From contig RCNN01000027.1 in NCBI GenBank assembly GCA_003667245.1, positions 1 to 64,000 of the forward strand: a stretch of 64,000 bases of DNA, given 5' to 3'. The notes below the pieces were generated by a model, which was not told the origin of the DNA, ran no database searches, and saw only the letters and a list, made by a program, of their open reading frames with translations. This document shows positions 44,084-53,183 of the stretch, in pieces (the stretch's first letter is position 1; each line of letters begins with the position of its first letter). The DNA comes from Heterostelium multicystogenum (taxonomy: Eukaryota > Evosea > Eumycetozoa > Acytosteliales > Acytosteliaceae). Both the position numbers and the translations under genes were made by a program.

Positions 44084-46621
44084 TTATAGTTTCTCCAAAG
44101 GAATGTTTAGCACATCAAATTTAACTTTGTAATCAAAATGCCACCATTCTTGTTTATGAGGTAAAAAGTCGTGGTTCATCATGGCTGTAGTCAACAGTTT
44201 CTTGAACCATCTTTGTCTTGATGTTCCTCCATAATAAGATCGGTGAGACCTAACCGAAAATTCATCATATTCACCTTGCATTGGGATGATTTCTTTGGTT
44301 TTCAAATTATATAATGTCAGGTCAACGGCACCTCCTCTGTTATGGACTGATCCTCTGCTTGGAGTGGCAACGTAGACTCCTATGAACTCAGGTTTGACAC
44401 ACTCAGCCATTGCCCAGGTGACATTCCATGGTCTGTATGAATCATAAACGATCAATCCAACACCCCATTGAGCCAACCAATTGTGACAACGAAGCAATGA
44501 CTCTGCTGCTTGACGGTGGAGGAATGCTTTGGCAACTTTATATAATGGAATTCCCAAGAAGTTATCAGTTGTGGCATATTTTACATCGGTCAAAAGTGTT
44601 GGTGAGAGTGTTGAGAGATCAACAAGACTGTGAGTTGCTGGTTGTGGATGTGGACATGGTACACTGTAAGATTTTTCTAAAATGATTTTTGCTTCGTCTG
44701 GTGGGCATACTCCTTCTTGTCTTTCTCCTGGAACAGGTCCAACATGTACATGATAAAAGGGAATCTTTTCTAATTCAAATCTATCTGGAAGTCCATTTGG
44801 TTTGAGATAGAAAACAACTCTTTCGTCATTGTAGAGTGAATCTGGAGAGAATTTAAATTCAACTGAGGTATTTGTTTTTGATATGAATTTAAGTGAGCAG
44901 TGGAGCAAGGTTTCAATACAAATCATTAAGGTTCCACCATAGTCTTCATAGATTATTGCAAGTTGATTTGCCTCATAATGACCAATAAGATTCTTTAAGA
45001 AATCTGGAATTTCCAAAGGAGGTTGTGACACTGGAGGTAGTGGATGGTAAGGTTCATATAATAGATTATTATTCGAAATGTCATTCTGTCTTTTGTATCC
45101 ATCAATTATTATTGTTTTATCTTCATTCATGGATATTTTCAATGGTATGCCAAAAGACATTCTATCATTGGTGGTTAGAGCTCCGTCTGGGAATAGAGGT
45201 GAACCATCTTCAGGTGAAATCCAACAGAGCTTGGTAGTACTGAATATTCTTCTGTATATATTTCCATTATATTCTTCATATATCTTGAAGCGTTGGGTAT
45301 CCTTTTGTGGAACACCCTCCACCTGTTGATAGTAACCCAAGATTGAGTTCTTAATCTCAACAGGAATTGGTTTGCATTTCATTATCGATTTCATTTGATT
45401 TTGAGCATTGACTAAAGCTGTCTTATCATATGGAATCTCTTGGGTGGGTTGGGGGATATTCTGGGAAATGATTAGTTGGAATATATAATCAACCAATTGA
45501 ACAACCAGGGAGTAGTTGCAGTCCAAAGTTGATACAGCATATATACCAACTCCAAGCTCTGGTACAACACGGAATTCACTTGCATAACCATAGAGTGCAC
45601 CACCATGTTTTCCCATTAATAGACCATAAATCTGATTAACTTCTATACCCATTCCATGGGTCATTGATGTTGGGTGGTAGTGGTTGTCATTGTTTGGAGT
45701 TGTAAGAGGATTGTCCAAAGGTTGTGGGGTCATCATCAGTTTGTATGATTGCTCAGATATTAATCCACCTCCATTATTTAAAAATATACGGAGGAAATGG
45801 TTGATTTCAGAAAGGGTACACTTTAATCCACCAGCAGGATTCATCCCCAATTTGATAATTGGTGCCTCTGTGAAAACACTAACATCAGTTGTAGTTTCAT
45901 CCCAGTAATTCCACATATGACCAACTGCCATTCTCATTTCGTCTTCGTTGGAGTATTTGGTGGAGTTCCACATATCCTTTTTAAAAGTACAGTGAGTCAT
46001 TCCAATTGGATCAAGAACGTACTGTTGTACATAGTCTTCAAACAACATTCCGGAAACCACCTGGATGATGTAGCCAACCAGTGCAATAGCAGTATTTGAG
46101 TACTTGAATATTGTTTTTGGTTTGTAGATTAGGGGAGTGTGACAAATAGATTTAACCAGCTCTTCAAGTTCACATTGATTTACATTAAAGCCATTGCCTT
46201 CGGGTGGTTCTCTAACAATTCCTGAGGTATGTCTGATTAAATTAAAAACAGTGATTTGTTTGTAGAGAGGTGGTTCGTTTGGATCACAATCGACAGGATT
46301 CTTTGGTGCAAAGTCGGGTGGCATGTATTTAGTAATTGGGTCAGTGAGAGAAACCTTTCCCTGATCAATCAGCTGGAACAGTGCAACATAGGTAAACAAT
46401 TTTCCAACTGAACCAATATTGAAAAGTGATCGTTCAATAGAAGGGATTGGAGTTCTGATCTCAGGATGATGGTAGACTTTTGTTAGGAGTGTCTTTGATC
46501 TATTGGTAATAGTCAATCCTACTACAGGAATAGCTTTGTCTTTGAATTGATAATCAATCCATTCTCCAATTGGTGATAGAATTGAATCGAGAGAATTAAT
46601 AATTTCATCTTTTTGTATCAT
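44084..46621 (-). CDS. Beta-lactamase-like / VanX-type D-Ala-D-Ala dipeptidase fusion, copy 1 (intact)
   Basis: Uninterrupted, intronless 845-residue ORF. Residues about 15-400 form a class C beta-lactamase/DD-peptidase-like serine hydrolase: SVGK at Ser71-Lys74 (SxxK), YSN at 174-176 and HGG at 339-341 (KTG position). A beta-rich middle follows (about 425-650, GHYEANQLAIIYEDYGGTLM). Residues about 660-845 are a VanX/M15D dipeptidase: VYDSYRPWN (Arg730), SVHNRGGAVD (zinc ligands His760 and Asp767), EWWHFDY (Glu825 base, His828 ligand). The His-Asp, His-Glu and Glu-His spacings (7, 65 and 3) equal those of Enterococcus VanX (His116, Asp123, Glu181, His184). There is no signal peptide, so a cytosolic location or unconventional routing is implied. 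Inferred role: trimming D-Ala-containing muropeptides from ingested bacteria. First of three tandem paralogues on the same strand. Confidence 0.88.
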   Translation of the reverse strand: MIQKDEIINSLDSILSPIGEWIDYQFKDKAIPVVGLTITNRSKTLLTKVYHHPEIRTPIPSIERSLFNIGSVGKLFTYVALFQLIDQGKVSLTDPITKYMPPDFAPKNPVDCDPNEPPLYKQITVFNLIRHTSGIVREPPEGNGFNVNQCELEELVKSICHTPLIYKPKTIFKYSNTAIALVGYIIQVVSGMLFEDYVQQYVLDPIGMTHCTFKKDMWNSTKYSNEDEMRMAVGHMWNYWDETTTDVSVFTEAPIIKLGMNPAGGLKCTLSEINHFLRIFLNNGGGLISEQSYKLMMTPQPLDNPLTTPNNDNHYHPTSMTHGMGIEVNQIYGLLMGKHGGALYGYASEFRVVPELGVGIYAVSTLDCNYSLVVQLVDYIFQLIISQNIPQPTQEIPYDKTALVNAQNQMKSIMKCKPIPVEIKNSILGYYQQVEGVPQKDTQRFKIYEEYNGNIYRRIFSTTKLCWISPEDGSPLFPDGALTTNDRMSFGIPLKISMNEDKTIIIDGYKRQNDISNNNLLYEPYHPLPPVSQPPLEIPDFLKNLIGHYEANQLAIIYEDYGGTLMICIETLLHCSLKFISKTNTSVEFKFSPDSLYNDERVVFYLKPNGLPDRFELEKIPFYHVHVGPVPGERQEGVCPPDEAKIILEKSYSVPCPHPQPATHSLVDLSTLSPTLLTDVKYATTDNFLGIPLYKVAKAFLHRQAAESLLRCHNWLAQWGVGLIVYDSYRPWNVTWAMAECVKPEFIGVYVATPSRGSVHNRGGAVDLTLYNLKTKEIIPMQGEYDEFSVRSHRSYYGGTSRQRWFKKLLTTAMMNHDFLPHKQEWWHFDYKVKFDVLNIPLEKL

Positions 46622-46908: not shown

Positions 46909-49278
46909 CTACTGAGATTCTTTGGGTGAGTTAAGGTACATAAAATTCCACCATTTCTTGGCATTAGGAATAAAATTATGATTCATCATTGCTGTTGTCA
47001 ATAGCTTCTTGAACCATCTTTGTCTTGTTGTACCTCCAAAGTAAGAACGATGGGATTTTATAGAGTTTTCATTGTAAGAACTTTGCATTGTTATTATTTC
47101 TTTTGATTTTAAATCATATAGGGTCAAGTCTACTGAATAGGAATGTCTTTCCAAAATACTAATATCGTAGATCACCATACCAAAAACCCCACTTCTCTAA
47201 CCATTGATTGCATCTAATGAGTATATTAAAAACATTTTTTTCTTTAGTAAATGAAATATTGTTGTTATTTACATTGTAGAAAAGTAAGGTTTTTGATACA
47301 TTTGATAGCTGTAGCAATATAGTACAGTTGTCCAATGAATGGGTTTTTGAATAAATACTATTGAAATTTGATTCAGGAGCCAATTTATTAACTATCTCCA
47401 TAGTATATTTAAAGATTATTCCTGAAAATTCAAACTTAATAGGTGTGCTATCTGTTTTTTAATGTGAAAATGATTCTTTCACCATTGTATCCAGACATTT
47501 GCGGGAATGAAAATACAACTTCATTGTTCTTTTCATATTCAAAAGATAGACTAAGGATATTCAATGAATTAAGAGATAGTTTAAGAGTTCCATTTTCTTC
47601 AAATACAATTGCAATGACATCTGATCCATAAATGACCAATAAGATTTTTCATTATTGTAGATGGAATATTGGGAGGAACAGACACAGGAGGAAGAGGCAA
47701 ATAAGGTTGATATACTAAATTTGAATTTGATATTATATTATCTCTTTGAAAACCTGCAACTTTTATATCTTTTCCATTTTCTTTAATAGAAAAACTAATA
47801 GGTTCATAAGATAATCTTCCATTACACAATAGAGGTCCTGATGATATCATATTGAGTTCATTAATCTGACTTTCGCATTTATATATCTTAAAGTTAAAAT
47901 CTTGAATGATTTTAAATTGAGTGACACCATCTTTGTAAAGGCCAAGTAATTTGTTTGAAAGTTCTTTTGGCATTGCATGAGAATTTTTAATTTGTTGTCG
48001 TGTCCTATTGATTGACAGATGTAAAGAGATATCATTATATGGAATTAATTTGGATTTACTTAAATTTGGAGATATAATTAGCTCAAAACAATATTCAACT
48101 AGTCTATTTACTATGGAGTTAGTGTTATCTAAATTTGAGACTGCATATATTCCGATGCCAATTTCAGGAAGAAATAAAAATTCACTTGAGAAACCATTTA
48201 ATTCACCATTATGACCAGATAAAAGAAGTCCATAAAAGTTATTTATAGCTAAACCAAGACCTTGTGAAAATGGGGATTGATGAAAATGAAAGTCTGATGT
48301 AATATGGTTTGAAAGAGTTTTCAAAGGTTGTGCAGTAATGATTTGTTTGAAAGTAGTTTGATTGATTAAAGGGGATCCTTCATTTAAAAATACTCGCATG
48401 AAATTACTTATTTGTGAAAGGGTACATTTTAACCCTCCAGATACATTCACTCCAGTCATTGAAATTGGTGCTTTTTGGAATACATTTGGGTCAATTGTAG
48501 TTTCATCCCAATATCTCCACATATATCCATCAGTTAATTCAATATCATTGTCGGAATTTGAGAAAATATTTTTGAAACTACAATGATTCATTCCAATTGG
48601 ATTTAGAATATTCTCTTGAACATAATCCTCAAAAGGAATTCCAGAGACAACCTGAATGATGTATCCTAGTAAAGAGGCACCAGCATTAGAGTATTTAAAT
48701 TTTGTTTTTGGAGCATAGATAAGAGTTGTACGACCCATTGCTTCTACTAATTCCTCAAGAGTTACTCTTTGAGAAGAAAATCTGTTCCCAATAGGAGGTT
48801 CAACCTGAAATCCAGAAGAATGACGAATTAAATTAAAAATAGTGATTTCTTTGAACAATTGAGGTTCATTTGGATAACCTATTGGATTTTTTGGAGCAAA
48901 GTCTAATGGCATGTATTTGATAATTGGGTCTGTAAGGGATATTAGTCCTTTCTCAACCAGTTGAAATATTGCCATATTTGTAAATAATTTGCTAACTGAA
49001 GCAACACTAAAAGCACTCTTCTCTACAGAGGGAATTGGGTCTTTAAAATTAGGGTGATGATGGATCTTGGTATAAAGTGATTGATGTTTATTAGTAATAG
49101 TGATGCCAATTATAGGAATGGCTTTATCTTTAATTTGATAGTTAATCCATTCTTCAAATGGATTTACAATTCCATGTTCATCTAAATTCGTAATTTCTTT
49201 AGATAAACAACAAAAACTACTACTCAAGAACAAAGAATTAACTAAAAATATAATACCTATAAATAAATATAAATCCAT
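46909..49278 (-). pseudogene. Fusion copy 2: signal peptide, beta-lactamase-like domain, degenerate dipeptidase remnant
   Basis: The ATG at 49278 begins MDLYLFIGIIFLVNSLFLSS, a strong signal peptide absent from copies 1 and 3. The serine hydrolase domain is open for about 550 codons and keeps SVSK, YSN and HNG. The rest is only recoverable through frame changes near 47640, 47455 and 47180, each beside a homopolymer. The dipeptidase module is truly damaged: the stretch from SYRPWN to HNRGGA of the paralogues is replaced by about ten unrelated residues (ISILERHSYS), and EWWHFDY has become KWWNFMY, so the zinc ligands, Arg and catalytic Glu are lost. It may be a secreted serine hydrolase with a dead tail, or a decaying pseudogene. 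The N-terminal domain looks constrained, which favours the first reading if the frameshifts are errors. Confidence 0.7.
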
Positions 49279-49668: not shown

Positions 49669-52205
49669 TTAGAGATTCTCTAATGGTATATTTAATACAT
49701 CAAAGGAAATTTTATAATCAAAATGCCACCATTCTTGTTCATAAGGTATAAAGTCATGATTCATCATGGCTGTTGTTAATAGCTTCTTGAACCATCTTTG
49801 TCTTGATGTTCCTCCAAAATAAGATCGGTGCGATCTGATTGAAAGCTCATCATATTCACCTTGCATTGGGATGATTTCTTTGGTTTTCAAATCATATAAT
49901 GTCAGGTCAACGGCACCTCCTCTGTTATGGACTGATCCTTTCTTTGGATCAGCAACATAGAGTCCTCTGAACTCAGGTTTGACACTCTCAGACATTGCCC
50001 AGGTGACATTCCATGGTCTGTATGAATCATAAACGATCAATCCAACACCCCATTGAGCCAACCAATTGTGACAACGAAAGCAATGACTCTGCTGCTTGAC
50101 GATGGAGGAATGCTTTGGCAACTTTATATAATGGAATTCCCAAGAAGTTGTCGGTTGTGGCATATTTTACATCGGTCAAAAGTGTTGGTGAGAGTGTTGA
50201 GAGATCAACAAGACTGTGAGTTGCTGGTTGTGGATGTGGACATGGTACACTGTAAGATTTTTCTAAAATAACTTTTCCTTCTTCTGATGAGCATACTCCT
50301 TCTTGTCTTTCTCCTGGGACAGGTCCAATTCTTCTGAAGAAGAAAGGTATACCCGAAAGCTCAAGTCTCTCAGGATGTCCAGAGTTATTGAGATAGAAAA
50401 CAACTCTTTCATCATTGTAGAGTGAATCTGGAGAGAATTTAAATACAACAATGTTTTGTTCTTGGGAAACAAAAGTGAGGGTGTAGATAAATAGCCATTC
50501 AATGCAAATCATCAAAAGTACCATCGTCTTCATAGATGAGGGAAAGATGATCTTTTGCCTCGTAGTGACCAACCAGATTCTTGAGGAATTGAGGTATTTC
50601 GATGGGTGGCTCTGAGACTGGTGGAAGAGGGATATATGGTTGGTAGAACAGATTATTGTCCGACATATCTTTTGCTCTAGTGAATGATTCAATTGCTGTA
50701 TCTTTACCATCACTTGAAGTGTATACCTTGAGTGGAAGAGCAAATGAAAGTCTATCATTCGTGACAAGTGCACCTGTAGGATAGATATCTGAAACTGCCC
50801 ATGAGAGCCTCGATATGAAAGAAGTCCTAAGATATAACTTTTGATTGTACTCTTGATAGATCTTGAAGTGATGAGTATCTTTTTTTGGGTCTCCATTTAC
50901 CAATTTGTAGTAGCCCATATACTGATCACGAATGTCGTTAGGAATGGGCTTACTTTCGAGTACTGATTTCATATTTAGTCTTGCATTCATCAATGCCACT
51001 GGGTCATAAGGAATCTGTGCTGATGGCTTGACGTAATGTGTGAGAATTTGTTGAATAACATATTCAGTAAGCTGTGAACTAAGTGAATTATTGCAGTCGA
51101 GTGTTGCCACAGTATAGACACCTATTCCTAGCTCTGGTAGTGCACGAAAATCACTTGCGAAGCCGTTTATGGCGCCACCATGTCTTGAAACGAGCAATCC
51201 ATAAAGTGAGGAAATCTCTGCCCCTAATCCATGGGTAAGAGTAGTAGGATGATAGTGGTAGTCGCTGTTTGGCTCATCAAGTGGTGCCGAAAATGGCTGA
51301 GGAGTGATCAGAGATCTAAAAGTTTTCTCCTTCAAGAGTGGTGCTCCTCCATTCAAGAAGACCCTGAGGAAATTATTGATCTCGGTAAGGTTGCATTTCA
51401 ATCCACCAGCTGGGTTCATTCCAAAGTGAGTAAGTGGAGCCTCTTTGAAGACACCCACATCTGTGGTTGTTTCATCCCAATATCTCCACATGTGGCCAAC
51501 GGACAAACGCATTTCATCTTCATTCTGGCATCTGGTATTGTTCCAGATATCCTTGAATGTGCAGTGCGACATTCCAATGGGATCAAGCACATACTGCTGT
51601 ACATAGTCCTCAAATGACATTCCTGAAACTACTTGTATGATGTAGCCAACAAGAGCGACTGCAGCATTTGAGTACTTGTGGCATGTGTTTGGCCTGATGA
51701 CAAGAGTCGACCTGCCCATAGACTCGGCCAACTGCTGTAGATTGCATTGCTCATAGTTAAAGTAGTTTCCTTCGAGTGGCTCACGAATCAATCCAGAAGT
51801 GTGGCGAATCAAATTGAATACAGTGATCTGTTTGTAGAGAGGTGGTTCGCTTGGATCACAATCGACAGGATTCTTTGGTGCAAATCCCTCCGGCATGTAC
51901 TTGGTAATAGGGTCACTGAGTGAAACCTTGCCTTGATCTACCAGTTGGAGGAGTGCTACATAAGTAAAGAGCTTACTGACCGAAGCAACATTAAAGAGTG
52001 ACTTGTCCACCGAAGGGATGGGGGTTCTGATATCAGGATGATGGTGGACCTTTGTGTAGAGTGTTTTCTCCCTGTTGGTAATAGTCAAACCAAACACAGG
52101 AACAGCTTTATCCTTGATTTGGTAACGAATCCATTCCTCAATTGGCTTGATAACAGTATCTTGATCCAAAGTTGTTACAACTTCAGACTCTGACTTTTGC
52201 ATCAT
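49669..52205 (-). CDS. Beta-lactamase-like / VanX-type dipeptidase fusion, copy 3 (two homopolymer frameshifts)
   Basis: The first in-frame ATG is at 52205 (MMQKSESEVV). The motifs match copy 1: SVSK, YSN and HGG in the serine hydrolase domain; YDSYRP, SVHNRGGAVD and EWWHFDY in the VanX domain. No signal peptide. The frame breaks at an extra T within TTTT at about 50517-50520 (after EDDGT) and at an extra base in the AAA/TTT run at about 50079-50081 (within ESLL-RCHNW). Copy 1 shows the expected sequence at both points. Discounting two bases gives 844 residues, against 845 in copy 1. All catalytic residues survive, so the gene is probably functional and the breaks are sequence errors or very recent. 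Intronless. The region coding the VanX part is nearly identical in DNA to copy 1, while the N-terminal part has diverged. Confidence 0.82.
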
Positions 52206-53183
52206 TTGATGGTATAAATTTTCCAAAAATTGAACTAAAAATATATGTTTTTGTTGTTTTTTGTTTTTTTGATTTGTTTTTTTGTTGAAACAACAAATAA
52301 CAAACAGATAATCAACAAATAGATAGATAATAGATACTTATAGATAAATCTATATCAGCTTATTGTAAAATAATAATAATATTATTATTTCTCGAGATAT
52401 AATTATAAAAATATGTTATTTTAAATTTTAAATTTTAATTTGATCATCTTATGTGTTAAACAGAAATATATTCCAATTTTGGTATATGCTAAAAGGTAGT
52501 TGGGTTGGTGGTGTTTAAAACACTTTGATCAAAAAGGAGTGTGCAAAACTCATAAGTGAGTAATAGTGTTTTTATTGAATAAAAATATCCAATCAAATCA
52601 ATCATTTTATTATCTTTATTTTAATTGTGGGGTTGAGGTGTACCTTTAGTATCTCTGATAGACTGCAATACAGAGCAAATACATGTATGAAAATACTATA
52701 TGGATATACCGATATATTTGTACTATCATACCCTCTGGATAAATTAGTTTAATACTCATGCCATAACCACATGGGAGGCAGAAAGAGATTAAGCTTTCTA
52801 GAACAGATACTACACTTGATCAAAGCTATTTTGCTTTGAGAAGGGGATTGATCGACACTAGGTCATCCAATCCGAATTCTACTAACCTCAAATACCTCTT
52901 TTTATAATACTGAAACTGTTTCATCTATCATGGTCCAAACCAAATGAACTTTCATCAAACACCCAAATGAGATAAATGAAATTTCAAAAATAAACATACA
53001 CAATTACATTGATGAAAAATTAATAAATAAATAATAAATTATCAATTTAATTTTTAATATAATTGTATAACTTAAATGTAACGTTGTTGTTGTTGCTGCT
53101 GTTTGCTTGCATTCTTTCTTTATGACCTATCTTGTCTTGTCTTTACTTGATTTGACTTGACTTTGCTTGTCTAATATATTATG
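52206..53183. other. Intergenic region between fusion copy 3 and the GARNL3-like gene
   Basis: About 980 bases, no ORF. The part from 52640 to 52900 is less AT-rich than the flanks and contains a perfect TCAAAGC/GCTTTGA hairpin (52820-52839, 6-base loop). A small ncRNA is possible but unsupported. The promoter of copy 3 lies at the left end. Confidence 0.4.

Follow-up and report, generated by a model that had tools for sequence, protein, structure and literature searches.

Introduction

VanX and DdpX are D-alanyl-D-alanine (D-Ala-D-Ala) dipeptidases of the M15 peptidase family, and in the structure 1r44 VanX is a stand-alone chain of 202 residues. A different set of enzymes, namely Pab87 (2qmi), D-aminopeptidase (DAP; 1ei5) and the penicillin-binding-protein-type (PBP-type) cyclases SurE and Ulm16, combines an S12 serine-hydrolase fold with small β-barrels that follow it, and carries out D-stereospecific chemistry. 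The Paenibacillus DL-peptidase Lip3 (9sn1) has the same organization, and D-stereospecific chemistry is also ascribed to it in the available part of its description (PMC13188892). Here we describe a gene, hereafter copy A, that joins an S12 domain with β-barrels and a VanX-type domain in one chain. It lies in a window of 64,000 nucleotides (the whole stretch analyzed, positions 1 to 64,000 of contig RCNN01000027.1, assembly GCA_003667245.1) from the dictyostelid Heterostelium multicystogenum; a sequence-only reading of this DNA had correctly supposed the host to be a bacterivorous amoeba. The catalytic stretches of VanX (1r44) align with copy A, whereas the S12 part is about 20% identical or less to Lip3, Pab87, DAP, SurE and Ulm16, none of which had a VanX match listed. 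Closer in architecture are proteins named at JGI as "CubicO group peptidase (beta-lactamase class C family)/D-alanyl-D-alanine dipeptidase", which in aligned rows share the domain order and catalytic residues of copy A, but are bacterial where an organism is named and mostly carry an N-terminal hydrophobic stretch.

Several proteins of Dictyostelium discoideum provide further points of comparison. LACTB and LACTB-like proteins are also of the PBP/β-lactamase type, but the available text of their description (PMC2266909) mentions no dipeptidase domain and uses the word "dipeptidase" 0 times. The product of pscA, a Peptidase S13 (PMC3188802), is likewise a bacterial-type D-Ala peptidase, listed as gained by a dictyostelid, although from another family. 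The 16-gene transfer table of that 2011 paper, in the part available, includes this S13 gene (DDB_G0271902), listed as "Dipeptidase/beta-lactamase", and not the S12–VanX fusion; accordingly, the D. discoideum "dipeptidase" cited in the accessible portion of PMC4958254 is unlikely to be the protein described here. Finally, D-Ala is the best substrate of the D. discoideum D-amino-acid oxidase (DAO). Expression of this oxidase peaks while the organism is unicellular, and the study describing it was, in the text available, aware of no further D-Ala-metabolizing enzyme there (PMC5928759).

Architecture and active sites of copy A

The open reading frame (ORF) of copy A starts with ATG and encodes 845 residues with 0 internal stops. 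Pfam searches recovered both domains above their cut-offs: PF00144 (Beta-lactamase) at residues 27–366 (E 8.8e-47, 160 bits against a cut-off of 27) and PF01427 (Peptidase_M15, D-Ala-D-Ala dipeptidase) at residues 664–831 (E 1.7e-27, 97 bits against 27). The ORF list and Pfam thus agree with the sequence-only reading that a single unbroken frame carries both domains, and its description of the VanX/M15D domain as complete also held, all catalytic residues being kept. The S12 part displays the motifs named in that reading, SVGK (S71, K74), YSN (174–176) and HGG (339–341), and these, together with its score, place it in the S12 family with its SxxK, YxN and (K/H)xG signatures. The VanX part features the stretches SVHNRGGAVD and EWWH, aligns with VanX 1r44 over the catalytic stretches (phmmer E 1.3e-19), and belongs with the VanX-type M15 peptidases, with catalytic R, SxH, D, E and H residues whose roles we presume to be those of VanX.

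To assess conservation, we used a 70-row alignment comprising the copy A protein and 69 of the 87 two-domain proteins described below (13 dictyostelid and 57 other rows). Every row has S71, K74, Y174, N176, H339, R730, S758, H760, D767, E825 and H828, and at least 90% of the rows have G341. An AlphaFold2 model of copy A (mean pLDDT 93.1, pTM 0.91) places two β-barrels between the catalytic domains, the second of which resembles the C-terminal barrel of the esterase IS11, Ulm16, Pab87, DAP and SurE. The collinear order of S12, middle region and VanX is that of the bacterial fusion family considered next. The nearest protein to copy A is PPL_10298 of Heterostelium album (76% identity over 100% of the length), a similarity well outside what chance would give; with the eukaryotic neighbouring genes noted below, it places the window in a dictyostelid close to Heterostelium.

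Table 1. Positions in the window of copy A, its domains and its tandem paralogues
Feature	Positions	Strand	Basis
Copy A, S12 + two-barrel + VanX gene	44084..46621	(-)	Intact 845-codon ORF, homologues, Pfam, model
S12 serine-hydrolase domain of copy A, ~residues 8-391	45449..46600	(-)	S71/K74, Y174-S-N176, H339-G-G341
First β-barrel of copy A, ~residues 429-511	45089..45337	(-)	No Pfam family
Second β-barrel of copy A, ~residues 547-625	44747..44983	(-)	
VanX-type M15 domain of copy A, residues 664-845	44087..44632	(-)	R730, S758, H760, D767, E825, H828
Copy B, S12 (plus barrel) part, 559 codons, open	47599..49278	(-)	ORF; PF00144 E 2.5e-44
Copy B, decayed VanX part	46909..47401	(-)	A pair of short, separate ORFs with no open frame into the S12 ORF
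Copy C, whole fusion with two frame breaks	49669..52226	(-)	Overlapping ORFs 50499-52226, 50027-50896 and 49669-50163; homology pieces

A widespread bacterial family with the same fusion

A protein search listed 105 matches, of which 12 are dictyostelid-type (8 carry a species name, 3 are EukProt rows and 1 is metagenomic). Another 75 also have both Pfam domains, and in the remaining 18 PF01427 is absent. The 75 are 26–40% identical to copy A, and for 67 of them the match covers 90% or more of the query. A genome scan returned at least 587 matching stretches, at least 572 of them relatives, and the best 80 loci, all bacterial, were analyzed; these match most of the fusion and are distributed over nine named phyla: Planctomycetota (28), Gemmatimonadota (17), Acidobacteriota (16), Bacteroidota (11), Ignavibacteriota (2) and one each from Verrucomicrobiota, Fidelibacterota, Pseudomonadota and Rhodothermota, with 2 unplaced. 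The sequence-only reading had taken the architecture to be a eukaryotic fusion of activities that are separate in bacteria; neither part of this survives, both domains being already joined in bacterial proteins. Its remark that no well-described enzyme has this architecture fits the open-access literature searched, in which we found no characterized member and no enzyme assay. The dictyostelid protein is a new member of a bacterial two-domain kind that is already known and, as far as that literature shows, uncharacterized.

We then examined the catalytic residues in the core proteins of 70 of the 80 loci (10 were left out for a short match, for length or for X in the sequence). The VanX R, S, H and D are present in 70 of 70, and the E and H in 69 of 70 with one gap, while the S12 nucleophile is serine in 65 of 70, and S71 or K74 is replaced in seven. 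The VanX residues being nearly universal and those of S12 sometimes lost, VanX activity seems to be what stays constant across the family, and the S12 domain appears not to be always catalytic. The five proteins with an alanine at the S12 serine (L066, L068, L073, L075 and L084) have an intact VanX site and might contain pseudo-enzyme S12 domains. A metagenome protein of 1350 residues (P0106), the top non-dictyostelid match of a dictyostelid profile, combines PF11954, PF01427 and PF00144.

Origin of the dictyostelid genes

Eight named dictyostelid species, D. discoideum AX4 included, hold the fusion protein. We built two trees by quick searches with no bootstrap, one of 46 rows (15 dictyostelid and 31 non-dictyostelid proteins) and one of 51 (9 dictyostelid rows, 10 proteins and 32 of the 80 loci). 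In both, the dictyostelids form one side of a branch with a Shimodaira–Hasegawa-like approximate likelihood ratio (SH-aLRT) support of 100, so that their grouping, which fits a single old transfer, is well supported. Their order in the trees broadly matches the dictyostelid groups. The S12 and VanX domain families are both bacterial. The trees being unrooted, the direction from bacteria to amoeba is argued from this and from the breadth of phyla, and a single acquisition from bacteria before the divergence of the dictyostelids found here is the most likely history. The fusion is common in bacteria and occurs across dictyostelids, and thus looks like an old transfer rather than a eukaryotic invention, an origin that we rejected in view of the bacterial proteins with both domains; since the domains are already joined in bacteria, the amoeba most likely took up a ready-made fusion. 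This apparent acquisition goes beyond the 16 genes in the available part of the 2011 table (PMC3188802) and points to a two-enzyme family spanning nine named bacterial phyla.

Neither tree, at 46 or 51 rows, resolves the attachment of the dictyostelids to the bacteria, and with it the donor phylum. A query made of the D. discoideum VanX half recovered 13 proteins: 11 were dictyostelid-type, one came from Alteromonas sediminis (39% identity) and one from a Gemmatimonadaceae metagenome-assembled genome. In the 51-row tree, neither of the last two joins the dictyostelids. No match could be assigned to other eukaryotes, in searches of word-limited sensitivity (one scored 7998 candidates) and with mostly nameless metagenome rows.

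The assembly contains high-GC bacterial contigs, one of them (C21) with a VanX-like gene of its own, which raises the question of whether copy A itself sits on a bacterial contig or a misjoined one. We regard this as extremely improbable: the GC content of the window is 27–39%, the neighbouring genes are eukaryotic (Rpb5, ENTH, CNH and purple acid phosphatase), and the protein clusters with dictyostelids from other records in the 46-row tree.

Absence of the N-terminal hydrophobic stretch from dictyostelid rows

Measured over the stretch preceding the conserved P32, a hydrophobic 10-mer ahead of the S12 domain occurs in 46 of the 57 non-dictyostelid rows and in 0 of the 13 dictyostelid rows. 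Thus a hydrophobic N-terminal signal that is common, though not universal, in the bacterial family is missing from the dictyostelid members. Hydropathy taken over residues 1–45 separated the two less well (2 of 12 dictyostelid and 74 of 96 other proteins reached 1.8 or more) because that span extends into the domain. The bacterial members look mostly exported, and the lack of the stretch in the dictyostelid members suggests that their enzyme probably shifted from export to the cytosol.

Predicted function and its alternatives

The likeliest role of copy A is the conversion of D-Ala-D-Ala and short D-Ala peptides from eaten bacteria to D-Ala. Specifically, we consider it fairly probable that copy A is a captured member of the bacterial two-enzyme family, probably cytosolic, whose VanX domain splits D-Ala-D-Ala, whose S12 domain trims D-Ala peptides and whose product drains into DAO. 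Small peptides would leave the phagosome and reach the enzyme in the cytosol. The VanX domain, predicted from its complete active site to be a zinc D,D-dipeptidase, would release free D-Ala from D-Ala-D-Ala and perhaps other D-Ala dipeptides. The S12 domain, as a D-stereospecific serine peptidase, may trim short D-Ala-containing stem-peptide fragments and so supply the VanX site, a weaker part of the proposal; structural neighbours of this domain include a D-amino-acid amidase and a DL-peptidase. The free D-Ala would then be oxidized by DAO, which is known for D. discoideum and has a homologue here.

The origin and anatomy of the fusion are well supported, and the chemistry and the order of its two steps are what we infer from them. 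The sequence-only reading had the domains acting in series on the D-Ala ends of stem peptides; as a predicted site of action this is plausible, with the qualification for the serial order that a DD-carboxypeptidase yields D-Ala and not D-Ala-D-Ala, the VanX substrate. Under a fuller scenario, which we hold only tentatively and regard as somewhat doubtful, a dictyostelid ancestor captured a whole processor of stem-peptide ends and lost its export signal, giving a D-Ala salvage route with a phagosomal S13 enzyme, the cytosolic S12–VanX enzyme and DAO as the sink; the S12 domain would then be an unrecognized D-peptidase that prepares or releases D-Ala-D-Ala for the VanX domain of the same chain. 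If salvage of this kind operates, a eukaryotic predator feeds on the D-Ala of peptidoglycan. The copy A family is a direct candidate for freeing D-Ala from cell-wall peptides, a step for which the available text of PMC5928759 names no enzyme.

Some bacterial copies adjoin genes predicted to act in D-amino-acid and stem-peptide catabolism. An enolase-superfamily (MR_MLE) gene lies at most three genes from the fusion in 6 of the 80 loci, upstream on the same strand in L012, L032, L052 and L071 and three genes away on the opposite strand in L064 and L084. A PF07969 amidohydrolase gene lies within five genes in 6 of 80 (on the opposite strand in L067 and L085), and the adjacent region holds an S13 D-Ala-D-Ala carboxypeptidase in 3 of 80 and DUF1611/DgcN in 3 of 80. 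In L071, the run leading into the fusion consists of amidohydrolase, DgcN-like, M19 dipeptidase, S12 and DgcA/epimerase-like genes; dgcN is described, in the part of PMC12363236 available, as the key gene of a racemization pathway for acidic D-amino acids. These counts come from a Pfam recount, which replaced a 10-locus neighbour cluster in which one fused protein had mixed S13 enzymes and amidohydrolases. L060 gave no match to Pfam, and the amidohydrolase match of L084 stayed below the cut-off. The neighbour clusters date from a first pass, at which opposite-strand ORFs masked the core ORF in 7 loci; it was later found in 80 of 80.

A number of observations weigh against the proposed role. 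No enzyme assay of this architecture was found in the literature searched, as noted above, and the cytosolic site is itself inferred. The VanX part misses the NCBIfam cut-offs of the VanX equivalog (NF033115, 81 against 320 bits) and the DdpX equivalog (NF007557, 113 against 176). The recurring neighbours occur in a minority of loci, many of them short, and were counted with no random-gene background; those in L071 fall slightly below the NCBIfam cut-offs (DgcA 375 against 400, DgcN 465 against 480), those in L032 and L052 well below, and that in L012 scores above cut-off as an o-succinylbenzoate synthase and not a dipeptide epimerase. DgcN had 0 matches in the H. multicystogenum genome. Further, the best S12 match by both sequence and Foldseek is the esterase IS11, and S71 or K74 is replaced in the seven bacterial core proteins noted above, which keep their VanX residues (serine to alanine in five). 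These last two points would also follow if only the VanX part mattered for D-Ala-D-Ala and the fused S12 domain were an esterase, an acyl-ester hydrolase or a non-catalytic binding module. We consider this unlikely given that no row of the 70-row alignment, dictyostelid (13) or other (57), lacks any of S71, K74, Y174, N176 and H339, and that copy B has kept its S12 part open (dN/dS, the ratio of nonsynonymous to synonymous substitution rates, 0.26 against copy A) despite decay of its VanX part.

Two further roles can be envisaged. Copy A might detoxify bacterial lipopeptides containing D-amino acids, as Lip3 does, rather than act on cell-wall peptides, which we regard as quite improbable. Resistance or defence, as a β-lactamase or in a vancomycin-resistance step like that of VanX, is brought to mind by the Pfam names of both domains and by low-scoring matches to class C β-lactamase models, but appears very improbable: among the 25 of 48 NCBIfam families inspected, the β-lactamase models fall far below their cut-offs, the class C model NF033085 giving 42 bits against 415, which places copy A outside that class, and the VanX shortfall given above likewise disfavours it. 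Moreover, amoebae have no peptidoglycan target for a β-lactam or vancomycin, so that neither resistance would help them. Processing of D-Ala-D-Ala and short D-Ala peptides from eaten bacteria remains the reading that we prefer.

Tandem paralogues

Two paralogues follow copy A in tandem, at 46909-49278 (copy B) and 49669-52226 (copy C), an arrangement that the sequence-only reading had not mentioned. In copy B, the VanX part reaches only 20.4 bits for PF01427, under the cut-off of 27, and, as read by eye, EWWH has become KWWN and SVHNRGG is lost. Its best N-terminal 12-residue hydropathy is signal-like (2.5, compared with 1.22 in copy A and 0.88 in copy C). Copy B may encode an S12 enzyme that is secreted and has shed its VanX part, an exception to the missing signal in dictyostelids.

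The VanX part of copy C scores 63.7 bits for PF01427, above the Pfam cut-off. Its pieces have dN/dS values against copy A of 0.15, 0.53 and 0.26; as all are below 1, the frame breaks may have arisen recently or reflect errors of assembly. Around the VanX start, A 44492-44742 and C 50078-50328 are 96% identical over 251 bases, compared with 74–87% in the other A–C repeats, and dS falls from 1.89 in the S12 part, a value close to saturation, to 0.32–0.38 in these pieces. The high local identity and the drop in dS point to probable gene conversion between copies A and C. In the 46-row tree copy C branches off ahead of A, B and H. album, which suggests that the copies may be older than the split from H. 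album.

Related genes and minor observations

As the assembly includes high-GC bacterial contigs, GC content was used to sort the matches found outside the window. A DAO/D-aspartate-oxidase homologue is present on the low-GC contig C209 (0.33). DAO matches fell on 12 contigs, and of the 9 for which GC was taken, 8 at 0.60–0.66 were discarded and C209 was kept; C430, C198 and C407 were left out. An S13 gene lies on the low-GC contig C178 (0.33) and a D-Ser dehydratase-like gene on C124, also of low GC, while epimerase, racemase, VanX and S13 matches on high-GC contigs were discarded. A split enolase-superfamily gene (L108, C78:37000-38600, GC 0.32) is weakly DgcA/L-Ala-D/L-Glu epimerase-like and could be a dictyostelid dipeptide epimerase; it scores 30.8 bits against a Pfam cut-off of 29.4, is far below the NCBIfam cut-offs and has no PDB match.

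Among the bacterial loci, L013 (5191-8451) features a fusion of an S13 D-Ala-D-Ala carboxypeptidase with an amidohydrolase immediately downstream of the S12–VanX gene. The high-GC (0.60–0.66) bacterial contigs of the assembly, including C21, C514, C508, C513, C118, C258, C235 and others, probably derive from food bacteria, and on C21 the VanX-like gene lies, as judged by eye, near an apparent peptide-binding protein gene.
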